A stretch of 41,834 nucleotides of DNA from positions 1 to 41,834 of IMG/VR virus record IMGVR_UViG_3300029309_000092, one strand, 5' to 3'. Shown piece by piece: positions 17,098-33,044 of this stretch. Origin of the DNA: a virus. The first letter of the stretch is position 1, and each line of letters opens with the position of its first letter. The position numbers and the translations under genes were made by a program. Under the pieces are notes generated by a model. It was not told the DNA's origin, did no database searches, and saw only the letters and a list, made by a program, of their open reading frames with translations.

Positions 17098-18614
17098 ATC
17101 GAATACCTGTATTGTGATCGTGAATCCACGACATGCAGATTCTCCCTTGCCCTAGTAACGGCGGTGTAGAAGACGCGGTGCTCATCGTCCTGATCCGGTG
17201 CGTTGACCGCAGGGTATGACGAGTCCGTTAGCAACAGAACATTGTCATCCTCGCCGCCCTTCATGCGGTGGATGGTAGACAGGCTGATTCTTGGCTTGGT
17301 TAGATCCTCGCCCCTACGTCGCACAGCCGCCATGTACCGACGATCTTCGCGGGACATATTGACCACGACTTCTGGCCTCATCTCTTGAGGCGCTAACAAC
17401 CCATGCTCTGCCACCAGATTGTCATAGTTGTGGAAACCTTGCGGATCCACCGCGTCAAAGGTCTTGGTCGCTGCACGCTTCAACAGCGCCTTGTCGCCTT
17501 GCTTTGGCATGTAGCCGTAGAGCTTCTTGATCTCACCGACACTAGCGGTCTCGCCCTTGGCTAACCGTTCCCAGATGTTCATGGCCTCAAGTAGTTCAAG
17601 CGAGATCATGGAATTACCAAAACGCTCAAACAAATACCCGTCGTCCCGTAAAGTTTGGTGAATATGGTTCAAGGCTTTGTTGGTACGCGCCATAATTGTC
17701 CACGAACCTTCATCAATATTCACATCGTACCAATTCATGTGAAAGTTGACAGAACCCTCGGCGTCACGCGGACTCCAGTCCTTCTCTTGCCTAACATGAA
17801 TACGGTTAACCAATTCGTTTGCCAGACCAAACACTTCCCCCGGCACACGGTAACTTTTGTTCAAGATAACCTTGTTGTCACAAGCGTTCATGAAGCTATG
17901 CAGATCCACGCCGTTCCAGCGGTGGATGCACTGGTCATCATCTCCGGCGTACCAGACCTTTGCCGCCCTCTCCTTGAGTATGGCAACTTGCTTCCACTGT
18001 AGCGGTGTCAGATCCTGCGCCTCATCGACGATCAGAATCTCCAAGGCAGGACCGGTGCCTTGCTGAACGAACAGATCCACCATGTCCGTGAAGTCATACT
18101 TGCCCATGTCTGACTTGTACTTTGCGTAGATCTGATCCACGCGCTTGACCATGCTCCAATGCAAGTCGTAGTCAGCTCGATCATTGTACTCATACTCAAG
18201 ACTCACACAGCGCATCTTGGCACGGTTGATAACCTCCAGATAGCGGTTGCCTTCTTTCATGGATAACGGCACCAGTCCTTCCTCCATGACCTGTGCAGTG
18301 CTACGGTCAAAGGGCATACCCAAGATATCACCCAGCTTGTGAAAGTCGGACGGCTGTACCGTCTCGGACTTGTCCATGCCCAACCAGTTGAAGCCGATTG
18401 AATGTAGCGTCTTGAACCACGGCACATCCTTTTCGGTAAGCTGTAGTGCGGTGCTCACTCGCTCTCTCGCTTCTTGAATAGACTTGCGAGAGAAAGACAC
18501 GAATCCGATACGATCAGGGGGCGTACCGTTGGCAAGTTCCTGACGCACGATCTCAATCATCGTGTGTGTTTTACCGCACCCTGGTGGCCCGAAGATGAGT
18601 GTCTCCTCAGTCAT
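17094..18614 (-). CDS. UvrD/Rep-like superfamily 1 DNA helicase
   Basis: A 506-residue helicase. It has Walker A GPPGCGKT (residues 9-16), FVSFSRKSIQEAR (motif Ia), Walker B LIVDEAQD (residues 194-201), WYAGDDDQCIHRWNG (motif III), NKSYRVPGEVFGLA (motif IV), and STIHRMKGGEDDNVLLL with FYTAVTRARENLHVV (motifs V-VI). It is smaller than E. coli UvrD (720), with reduced 1B/2B insertions. It should unwind DNA ahead of the phage polymerase or in repair. It is part of the leftward replication operon with overlaps on both sides. Confidence 0.93.
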   Translation of the reverse strand: MTEETLIFGPPGCGKTHTMIEIVRQELANGTPPDRIGFVSFSRKSIQEARERVSTALQLTEKDVPWFKTLHSIGFNWLGMDKSETVQPSDFHKLGDILGMPFDRSTAQVMEEGLVPLSMKEGNRYLEVINRAKMRCVSLEYEYNDRADYDLHWSMVKRVDQIYAKYKSDMGKYDFTDMVDLFVQQGTGPALEILIVDEAQDLTPLQWKQVAILKERAAKVWYAGDDDQCIHRWNGVDLHSFMNACDNKVILNKSYRVPGEVFGLANELVNRIHVRQEKDWSPRDAEGSVNFHMNWYDVNIDEGSWTIMARTNKALNHIHQTLRDDGYLFERFGNSMISLELLEAMNIWERLAKGETASVGEIKKLYGYMPKQGDKALLKRAATKTFDAVDPQGFHNYDNLVAEHGLLAPQEMRPEVVVNMSREDRRYMAAVRRRGEDLTKPRISLSTIHRMKGGEDDNVLLLTDSSYPAVNAPDQDDEHRVFYTAVTRARENLHVVDSRSQYRYSI

Positions 18615-18829
18615 CCGTCTTCTCTGTCGCGTGGACGAGACTCAAGCCAATGCTCTACCTCTGTCCGTAGCCAGCGGGTTGTGCTGTTCTTCTCGTTCTC
18701 AGGGCCGAGCACGACTGGTTTGGGGAAATGTCCTTCGTCTACCCACCGGTAGATCGTTGAACGCGCCACACCAAGCCATTCGACTACATCGCCCACTTTG
18801 AGATACCGTTCATCAGAAGGGTATGTCAT
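18611..18829 (-). CDS. AlpA/MerR-type helix-turn-helix protein
   Basis: A 72-residue DNA-binding protein: YLKVGDVVEWLGVARSTIYR (helix-turn-helix, about residues 9-28), then WVDEGHFPKPVVLG and RWLRTEVEHWLESR. This is the AlpA / excisionase-family winged-helix pattern. AlpA-like proteins regulate transcription or help recombination. With no integrase in the window, a regulator or replication accessory role is more likely than excision. It overlaps the primase gene by 17 bases and the helicase gene by four. Confidence 0.85.
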   Translation of the reverse strand: MTYPSDERYLKVGDVVEWLGVARSTIYRWVDEGHFPKPVVLGPENEKNSTTRWLRTEVEHWLESRPRDREDG

Positions 18830-20345
18830 TTTCTATCTCCTCTGTTGGTAGGTCGATTTCGGTGTTGTCAAACTCTGGTACAAACCAGACGCGAAGATTC
18901 TTCCATTGACCAGTATCTTCGTCTTTAAACTTGTAGGTGGTGTTGCAGTCATGCCCACCATTCATGTCCTTGAGGCGCTGCTGGATTTGTGGACGCTTCA
19001 GTTCGCGGAATCCGCGATTGCGTAGAAACTCCATCAGTCCCTTAATCGTGAACATCGTCATGTCATTCTCTGTCCACGGCTTGCCAATCGTCATCTCTTG
19101 CGGTGATCGCGCCCGAATCCTGCCAGTGCAGTAAACCTCAACCAGTTCTTCAAACTGACCTTTGATCGTTAATTCTTTGGGCACCTCAATGTGTGTGGCC
19201 GTCTCAAGCATCCGGTTCACATACTCCTGCCAATCCGGCGCCTTCATGATTGGCGGCATGACATCAAGCTGCTCCATACATGCACGTTGGAACTGCAAAG
19301 GCATTTGTAACTGTTCGGTGGACAACTCCAGCCGCTTGCCATCAACATCCAGAAAGTACAGGCGCGGCTCTGACTTTTGTATCGTGAGTCCGGTAATACC
19401 AGGCATCGAGCCGTTCTTGCCTATGCCATACTTGGCTTGCCGACAGGCCGTCTTATCACAATGACTGCCCATGGGTTCGTCCTTGCAGAGATACCCATAG
19501 TCCTTCTTCTTGTGCTGGTTCTGGATTGTGACGATCTCACTGGCAGGCAATGATGGTTTGCAATACTTTTGATTCCACGATTCAAGGGTACGTTCCCACG
19601 AATCTGGATTCATCATCTTCGCGGCCACCGCCGCATGAAACATGACTTTGTTTCTTGTGCCGTCTGGCACAGAGGTTGCGAACATGATCCGCAAGCATGG
19701 CGGCATTTCGCGAAGTTCGTCATCATCGGTCGAAAAATCTAGCTTGCGAAGATCCTCTAACGTGACCTTTTTACGCTCAACCTCTTTAAGAAACGACTCA
19801 AGTGATAACTCATCCCCCTTCTGATTTATCGCATAACGTAATGTATTATCTGCCGCGAAGTACGGCAGGTTAATGAAGTTGCCGACATCACCACGCTCGG
19901 CAAGAATCTTGTTTTGTTTTGGAAACACCTCACAGCCGCCGTAACCGAGTACGGCAGCGAACTCCATCAGGTGGTCACGCATATCTGTTGCACTAATCCA
20001 GTCTCGCATAAACAAGAACAGATGTGCCCCGCCTGACTTAGAACGGCAAACAACGAGTGGTAGCTTAAAACGGCGGCACTTCTTCAAGATGGCTAGGTGG
20101 TCAACCGGATATGTATCAATGTCTAATGCACCAAACTTGCACATGTTCTGACTATTGATCGGAATCGAACCAACCCCATGTTCGCCCTGCAAATGGCTGT
20201 CGATCAAATGCTTGGTCAACGGTTCACGGACGATGAAACTCTTTGCCTCTGTCTTACCGTTCTTCCTAACGTCACCTACTGTTGTTTGACCATGTGCAAC
20301 GCTGGAGCCTTCAAAGACCGCAGCGAACCGGTCAACTAATGTCAT
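18813..20345 (-). CDS. Archaeo-eukaryotic-type primase (TOTE/AEP family) with SSB-like DIPF tail
   Basis: A 510-residue primase. I chose ATG 20345, six bases after GGAG; an in-frame GTG just before it is too close to that site. The AEP domain has FGALDIDTY (Asp75/Asp77 metal site) and SKSGGAHLFLF (residues 102-112), matching the archaeo-eukaryotic primase of TOTE-type elements. A Cys cluster (CKDEPMGSHCDKTACRQAKYG, about residue 295) may bind metal. The C-terminus ends EIENDIPF, resembling the acidic DIPF tip of bacterial SSB. It should make primers for the phage polymerase. A terminator lies between it and the upstream SSB-like gene. Confidence 0.9.
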   Translation of the reverse strand: MTLVDRFAAVFEGSSVAHGQTTVGDVRKNGKTEAKSFIVREPLTKHLIDSHLQGEHGVGSIPINSQNMCKFGALDIDTYPVDHLAILKKCRRFKLPLVVCRSKSGGAHLFLFMRDWISATDMRDHLMEFAAVLGYGGCEVFPKQNKILAERGDVGNFINLPYFAADNTLRYAINQKGDELSLESFLKEVERKKVTLEDLRKLDFSTDDDELREMPPCLRIMFATSVPDGTRNKVMFHAAVAAKMMNPDSWERTLESWNQKYCKPSLPASEIVTIQNQHKKKDYGYLCKDEPMGSHCDKTACRQAKYGIGKNGSMPGITGLTIQKSEPRLYFLDVDGKRLELSTEQLQMPLQFQRACMEQLDVMPPIMKAPDWQEYVNRMLETATHIEVPKELTIKGQFEELVEVYCTGRIRARSPQEMTIGKPWTENDMTMFTIKGLMEFLRNRGFRELKRPQIQQRLKDMNGGHDCNTTYKFKDEDTGQWKNLRVWFVPEFDNTEIDLPTEEIENDIPF

Positions 20346-20357
20346 CACTTACTCCGC

Positions 20358-27871: not shown

Positions 27872-28209
27872 AACGTCCTCCAAGACTGATATTTAATTGT
27901 TATTATACACAGAGCGAGACAGTATGCAACAACATAAGAATCGTGTCTCGTTTGTCACGTTTGTTACACTAATTTTGCTGAAAAAAAGTTTTTAAAATTT
28001 TTTCAAATGGGGTGTGACAAGTGTGACAAGTGTGACAAGAACTCCGCAACACGAGGCGGAGCAAGGGTTTTTCTTTGGCACACTTCTAAGCATTTTTGGC
28101 ACACTTGTCACACTTTGGAGACTCTATAGGACAACATCTCAAAAACCTGGTAAAAGGCTTGGATTCAAAAAGACTTCAAAACAACATTTTTATGGGGTAC
28201 TAGTGTGAC
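27872..28209. repeat. Ten copies of a 9-bp motif in the divergent spacer (iteron-like)
   Basis: The consensus GTGTGACAA or its reverse occurs in phased groups: reverse copies at 27951-27959 and 27960-27968; three exact direct copies at 28012-28038; reverse copies at 28076-28084, 28096-28104 and 28105-28113; direct copies at 28203-28211 and 28212-28220. The last pair covers the start codon of the small terminase gene. Between the first groups is an A/T-rich stretch (27972-28007). Such a layout suits a pac/cosB-type site, a replication origin or an operator. The stretch holds no convincing gene. Confidence 0.8.
27902..27929 (-). promoter_or_regulatory. Candidate promoter for the long leftward operon
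   Basis: On the minus strand TTGCAT (27924-27929) and a perfect TATAAT (27902-27907) are 16 bases apart. The first gene starts at 27871 with the leader AGTCTTGGAGGAC. The promoter borders the 9-bp repeat array, so the array could control it. Confidence 0.55.
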
Positions 28210-28767
28210 ATGTGTAACAAGAAGACAGACATTCTTGCAGATGACATTGAGGCCGAGACTGGACGCAAATTGACTCAGCGTCAGCGTGAGTTTGCTCGGC
28301 ACTATGTTGAAGGCATATATTCCAACGCTGAATGTGCCCGAAAGGCAGGCTATGCATCCAACTCAGCAGCCTCTATTGCTGGGCATCTGTTAGCCGGCAA
28401 AAAGTTTCCCCACCTCACCGATTACATACAAGAACTTCGTGAAGAACGAGAACGTCGTTATGGCGTGACTGTCATGGGTCAGCTCAAACGTCTTCATGAA
28501 TTATCAACCGGCGCCGAGGAGGCAGGTCAATTCTCAGCCGCAATCAACGCCGAAAAGATACGATCTGCACTTGGTGGCTTGACCGTAGATAGGCGAGAAA
28601 ACATTCATCAGTTAGACGATCTGTCGCGTGAAGAAATCACTTCTCGTTTGGATCAACTCCGTCGCGAGTATCCGCAGGCGTTCATTGAGGGTGAGTATAC
28701 GGAGGTAGTTGATGCCGACACCGGAGGCGAACTTTTGGAACACCATCCGCAGGAACCTGCCGAGTAA
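28210..28767 (+). CDS. terS: Terminase small subunit
   Basis: A 185-residue protein. The N-terminal DNA-binding domain has LTQRQREFARHYVEGIYSNA and ECARKAGYASNSAASIAGHL (about residues 20-60), the Terminase_2-type helix-turn-helix, then RYGVTVMGQLKRL and GGLTVDRRENIHQLDDLSRE. It recognises phage DNA to start packaging. The ATG has only a weak ribosome binding site and lies inside the 9-bp repeat array, a plausible binding site for this protein. The nuclease gene overlaps its 3' end by 59 bases. Confidence 0.85.
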   Translation: MCNKKTDILADDIEAETGRKLTQRQREFARHYVEGIYSNAECARKAGYASNSAASIAGHLLAGKKFPHLTDYIQELREERERRYGVTVMGQLKRLHELSTGAEEAGQFSAAINAEKIRSALGGLTVDRRENIHQLDDLSREEITSRLDQLRREYPQAFIEGEYTEVVDADTGGELLEHHPQEPAE

Positions 28768-32696: not shown

Positions 32697-33044
32697 AATA
32701 GTCCTCCAATAGACTAGGTTAGTTTAACGATGAGAAACAACGAACGGCAGGTATTGGTTGCCGTTAATGTCCTTAGACATTAATTAAATATGGGACTACA
32801 TGCAACACTTAATAACAAATAAAATACATATTATTTGTCAATAATATGACGGGTTACTTGGGACAATATCGGGCAACATGTCAAATTACTGACGCCCCAA
32901 CCCCCTTGACAAGACGGGGCGCTGCGCGCGCCCACCCACCCACCCTAGATGGGTAGATTCATTCTCATGTTTTTCTGTTCGACCTAGGCACCGGTTGCAA
33001 GATCCACAAATTAATTGTACGAATACCTAAAGGAGTCCCTGGGC
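32697..33044. promoter_or_regulatory. Divergent regulatory spacer with operator-like palindrome
   Basis: The spacer separates the leftward block from the rightward packaging block. ATATTATT-TGTC-AATAATAT (32828-32847) is a perfect inverted repeat; on the minus strand its centre includes TTGACA, with TGTTAT 18 bases downstream, so it may be a promoter with an overlapping operator. GGGCGC-TGCGC-GCGCCC is near 32919-32936, next to a CCCA repeat. For the rightward gene, TTGCAA (32995) and TACGAA (33018) are only a weak promoter candidate. No gene is seen in the rest. Confidence 0.55.
32699..32716 (-). promoter_or_regulatory. SD-in-loop leader hairpin for the gene at 32696
   Basis: Plus-strand TAGTC (32699-32703) and GACTA (32712-32716) are five-base arms around an eight-base loop that, on the minus strand, contains TGGAG. 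It is the strongest of three similar structures in the block. Confidence 0.5.

Follow-up and report, generated by a model that had tools for sequence, protein, structure and literature searches.

A 9-bp repeat array at the terS start of a phage genome as a probable iteron-type replication origin whose word tracks the wing of a PrimPol-type primase

What is the function of a dense array of 9-bp repeats that runs into the start of a small terminase gene, and which protein reads its word? The question is raised by a phage, represented by a 41,834-base virus record (G000) that was analysed over its whole length and is called the window here, in which terS is present together with genes for TerL, the portal protein, PolA, and a PrimPol-type primase; among annotated phages, those with the TerL closest to its own, at about 61% identity or less, are 023Pt_psg01, the Pelagibacter phages HTVC027P and HTVC023P, and DSL-LC04. 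The original prediction offered three functions for the array, among which an iteron-type replication origin is now the best supported, an operator is retained as a possible side role, and a packaging site recognised by TerS is not supported. The array has no match in Rfam or in a DNA search of a phage collection, and a literature search for the repeat itself found no description of it; papers on HTVC023P-type marine phages (PMC9599517, PMC12753301) describe no origin, iterons, or such repeats.

The array sits between divergent genes and comprises ten 9-mers at 27952-28220, the number first claimed for it, in four groups with the orientation order <<, >>>, <<<, >>. Group 1, on the minus strand, is formed by the copy at 27952-27960 (ACGTGACAA, read on its own strand) and, in tandem with it, the copy at 27961-27969 (GTGTAACAA); group 2, on the plus strand, by three exact tandem copies of GTGTGACAA at 28012-28020, 28021-28029, and 28030-28038; group 3, on the minus strand, by a lone copy at 28075-28083 (GTGTGCCAA) and a tandem pair at 28096-28104 (GTGTGCCAA) and 28105-28113 (GTGTGACAA); and group 4, on the plus strand, by the tandem pair at 28203-28211 (GTGTGACAT) and 28212-28220 (GTGTAACAA), which spans the terS start as predicted, with the terS ATG at 28210 inside it. 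Tandem 9-mers inside the groups follow each other at exactly 9 bp, and AAGTGT occurs at most junctions; the predicted alternation of groups and frequent 9-bp tandem period were confirmed, except that in group 3 the step from the lone copy to the pair is 21 bp, a distance kept in relatives. The gap of 90 bp between groups 3 and 4 contains zero copies. The peak density of matches with at most one mismatch is 9 per 300 bp in the window; 40 second-order Markov sequences of equal length gave a peak of 1-2, and no second cluster of the word was found elsewhere in the 41,834 bases.

Between groups 1 and 2 lies the A/T-rich stretch that had been noticed from the letters, at 27970-28007 (no strand; 87% A+T), a candidate unwinding element. 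It is among the two most A/T-rich 40-bp places of the window, and an A/T-rich run at the same position is also present in the relatives whose sequence was inspected; a comparable A+T content over 40 bp recurs just once in the window, at 32804-32850, where no repeats of the array word occur. Two features of an iteron origin, multiple short direct repeats and an adjacent A/T-rich region, are both found here. The GC skew of the window also turns at the array, which is weak evidence because the divergent gene orientation changes at the same place.

A similar layout is found upstream of terS in about 100 IMG/VR loci, for example with >>> at -198/-189/-180, < at -135, << at -114/-105, and >> at -7/+2 relative to terS; the conservation of spacing that the original prediction expected was therefore observed, with the same offsets kept to the base pair, while the word changes in concert across all copies. 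Words among relatives include GTGTGACAA, GTGTAACAA, GTGTTACAA, GTGTCCTAA, GTGTCTTAA, and GTGTCGAAA, and further GCGTGACAA, GTGGGACAA, GTGTTACGA, GTGTAACGA, GTGTAACCA, GTGTACTAA, GTGTCTCAA, GTGTGAGAA, GTGTAAACA, and GTGTAATCA; word positions 1-4 and 9 are nearly constant, and the variation lies at positions 5-8. For instance, the contigs L012 (CGTGACAAA/GTGTGACAA), L127 (GTGTCTTAA/GTGTCTGAA), L130 (GTGTCGAAA/GTGTCGGAA), and L132 (GTGTCGAGA) have closely similar flanks adjoining the array despite their differing words.

Related repeats were also observed outside these loci. GTGTxxxxA triplets with inverted copies occur in at least seven more viral contigs (L323, L346, L358, L378, L381, L385, and L391), with the words GTGTAATGA, GTGTGGCAA, GTGTCATAA, GTGTTCAAA, GTGTCGGAA, GTGTGATGA, and GTGTCAACA; these contigs, which come from a scan for AGTGTNNNNA triplets with coding repeats mixed into its matches, suggest a wider class of AGTGT-core iterons. 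Arrays of GTGTGACAA also occur in phage groups with unrelated replication proteins (L004, L034, L006, L017, and L069), where they adjoin D5-type primase-helicase or SNF2/VRR-NUC genes; in unrelated phage groups whose primases are D5-type or of other kinds, such arrays are found next to primase or terminase genes. Three relatives also have, on the terS side, clustered copies of another, GC-rich repeat (CTGCGGCC/AGGGCCGC), at L295:7431-7569, L296:1260-1465, and L307:132-328.

Several proteins of these phages could be considered as readers of the word. The terS gene (28210-28767, plus strand) encodes a member of PHROG 51 and starts inside group 4, and the array adjoins terS in most relatives; pac sites are often in or near terS, which would fit the proposal that TerS recognises the array as a pac or cosB packaging site. 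However, TerS was excluded as the reader because identical TerS proteins accompany different words, L012 and L127 sharing all 188 of 188 residues, and because in G015 the array is at 21.0 kb and terS at about 45.6 kb, about 24 kb away; in L298 the two are more than 4 kb apart, and the word changes follow residues of the primase, not of TerS. A packaging site is accordingly very unlikely.

The AlpA-like winged-helix protein (18611-18829) was initially a plausible reader, given what is reported for BldC: its protomers each bind one 9-bp direct repeat (PMC5859096), so that the array could be an operator on which the AlpA-like protein, of similar size and fold class, assembles head to tail. The head-to-tail 9-bp repeats and the winged helix are indeed common to BldC/AlpA-type MerR-like systems and the window (PMC5859096), but the AlpA-like protein of the window phage does not track the word. 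It is 100% identical in the contigs L310 and L246, with the words GTGTGACAA and GTGTCCTAA, and again in L247 and L238, with GTGTAACAA and GTGTGAGAA; one AlpA sequence is common to L130, L132, and L135, yet two words occur among them, and GTGTGACAA is found with very different AlpA sequences. Such an operator is the least probable reading of the array and can hardly be maintained. Two other candidates were rejected: the DNA-reading strand of the ribbon-helix-helix (RHH) protein is identical in L127, L012, and L130, whose words differ, and the C5-methyltransferases of the L127 and L012 contigs share 95% identity, with only three genomes of the C class behind the association of this enzyme with word position 5.

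The proposed reader is the primase of PrimPol/AEP-TOTE type, encoded at 18813-20348 on the minus strand as a 511-aa ORF, or as 510 aa from the ATG at 20345, so that residues 471 and 473 of the ORF are 470 and 472 of the shorter form. Between L310 (the G052 contig, also labelled L047) and L246, 13 of 512 primase positions differ and 8 of these fall within a 23-residue C-terminal hairpin (p=5e-9), while most other replication proteins are 94-99% identical; between L247 and L238, the hairpin contains 8 of the 20 primase differences (p=4e-7), and the gp34-like protein is 100% identical. The 27 primase differences between L171 and L173 show no hairpin excess, nor do those between L173 and L174; residue 473 changes in both of these pairs: it is R with GTGTCTTAA, S with GTGTCGAGA, and N with GTGTCGAAA.

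When all 511 primase columns were scanned in 27 genomes, residue 473 was the sole perfect separator of CA at word positions 7-8 (K in 18/18 genomes with CA, non-K in 9/9 others), and residue 471 was the sole perfect separator of C at word position 5 (K in 5/5, another residue in 22/22). The window phage has T471 and K473, and the L246 type has K471 and N473. When 11 further proteins from these genomes were examined likewise, none had a perfect column for positions 7-8, and columns perfect for position 5 occurred in the RHH protein and the methyltransferase only, each with 3 genomes of the C class. On a tree built from the N-terminal 390 residues of the primase only, word positions 7-8 and residue 473 each change six times, and position 5 to or from C and residue 471 to or from K each change three times. 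The rule was first formulated on about twelve genomes, with residue 473 assigned to word position 7 alone. In nine later genomes (L291-L296, L298, L302, and L307), the residue-471 rule holds unchanged throughout; the initial residue-473 form was broken by L295, L296, and L302, in which C is kept at position 7 and position 8 is changed, and its form for positions 7-8 is a post hoc refinement made after these three. The arrays of L182, L188, and L292 mix the words GTGTTACAA and GTGGGACAA, and all three have Q at residue 471. A second primase search gave no more arrays of this group because the contigs are truncated early or fall into a second primase clade related to this one (L461:12509-13018; L499-L510), in which the wing is nearly constant, EQFRIKGRTVRCWSIP; L461 carries an array of GTGGGACAG just upstream of terS.

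The fold of the primase was also considered. Its N-terminus has an AEP-TOTE Pfam match and matches solved PrimPol structures (Foldseek to CAPP PrimPol, E=2.5e-9), and no Walker A motif was found in the protein. The C-terminal domain alone gave no Pfam match and no significant fold-search match; AlphaFold2 secondary structure places a putative winged helix at residues 394-490 of the 510-aa form (18876-19166, minus strand), with a pLDDT of about 70-87 and a fitting helix-helix-strand-strand order (helices 434-443 and 451-461; wing strands 468-474 and 481-490). The predicted beta-hairpin wing comprises residues 467-486 in this numbering (18888-18947, minus strand) and contains the word-tracking residues 470 and 472, which alternate along the first wing strand in the model, as well as 482-483. 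Across 75 primases, residue 470 (471 of the ORF) varies more than any other position of the domain, with the near-invariant neighbours K474, W481, R485, and W487. The match between word and wing residues, like the array itself, its conserved layout, and the concerted change of its word, is read directly from the sequences; that the word tracks the C-terminal wing points to the primase as the protein reading it.

Similar pairs of array and primase were found in annotated phages. A protein search found related primases in 25 annotated phages, several of which have been cultured, and in all 15 inspected upstream of the primase gene a short-repeat array, without annotation in the inspected regions, lies directly upstream of that gene. 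The array words group with the wing sequences: GAGCAACC with HGALKVNK in the Acinetobacter phages DMU1 and SH-Ab 15497 and also in AbaSI_2 and 2AB-P; GAG[A/T]AACC with HGAIKVNK in pB23 and phage 53; GAG[T/G]AACC with HGSIKVNK in Bhz9 and Bhz20; GGGTAAC with HSVIRVNK in JeffCo (Acinetobacter) and Barton; TGGAACGG-type words with HTKLRVNK in PSA28, K21lambda1 (Klebsiella), VLCpiS6a, and PMBT28; and TGGAACC with HTKLKINK in Kokobel2 (Providencia). As in the window, tandem and inverted short repeats change with the wing of a homologous primase; unlike in the window, the period in these Acinetobacter, Klebsiella, and Providencia arrays is mostly 8 bp, and the arrays are beside the primase gene, not terS. 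A second cluster of the same repeat lies away from the primase gene at L514:43112-43317 in DMU1, where it is just before terS, and at L513:31252-31482 in PSA28.

If the primase binds the array, it may do so at an origin or at an operator. The array could be mainly an operator, used by the primase to repress terS and/or the divergent leftward early genes, with replication starting elsewhere, and the last pair over the terS start, the position between divergent genes, and the covariation of word and wing, which fits equally, are consistent with this. A scan with promoter consensus sequences, however, gave only one weak promoter-like site, within chance, and the origin is preferred over the operator because inverted groups flank the A/T-rich stretch and because the arrays of annotated relatives are directly upstream of the primase gene. 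A mainly regulatory array is therefore considered unlikely, and the array is probably an iteron-type replication origin in which each 9-mer would be a site for the C-terminal winged helix of the primase.

From the sequences we infer physical binding, strand opening, origin activity, and an effect on terS, which may be combined as follows. The winged-helix domain would contact the near-fixed half of the word (AGTGT...A) with its conserved part and the variable positions 5-8 with its beta-hairpin wing, where residues 471 and 473 of the 511-aa ORF would do the reading, assisted by 483-484. Primases would load cooperatively on the oppositely oriented groups, coating them through their wings, and the loaded primases would mark the A/T-rich stretch that separates groups 1 and 2 and help to open it, which would place the primase at the start of the fork to begin synthesis. 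The occupied last pair may repress terS until late and so delay the packaging genes.

In SaPI Rep and SCCmec Cch2, a C-terminal domain is reported to bind the iterons, and Cch2 requires the iteron sequence AAGTG (PMC7581432). The window resembles these systems in its short direct repeats and in having, as their predicted binder, the C-terminal domain of a replication protein that the element itself encodes, and the AAGTG needed by Cch2 is contained in the AAGTGT of the array junctions. The SCCmec Cch2/SaPI binder is a self-loading helicase (D5/Primase_Cterm-type or DUF927), whereas the putative binder of the window is a PrimPol without Walker A, and, unlike SCCmec Cch2 and SaPI Rep, the window primase seems to read a variable half-word via its wing. 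Lambdoid O proteins and plasmid iterons also have multiple sites beside an A/T-rich region, and initiator and site change together between relatives. The window shares with them the several sites beside an A/T-rich region and the co-change of sites and initiator, here a putative one, but differs in the protein, in the four alternating groups, and in changes traceable to single wing residues.

From sequence alone, a likely origin is named here together with its probable reader and the specificity residues; the code is directly testable, and cultured phages with related arrays make bench tests practical. The many natural changes of the word against near-constant flanks constitute a natural experiment in the co-change of a protein and its site. 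There is an even chance that a broad phage group has its origins recognised by a PrimPol-type primase that lacks a helicase domain of its own, in which case a fast-evolving beta-wing would read 8-9 bp iterons by a simple residue-to-base code and give rise to lineage-specific origins. The results suggest that origin words are perhaps predictable from the primase gene in metagenomic phages, and, if true, lineage-specific origin words may allow replication exclusion between co-infecting relatives.
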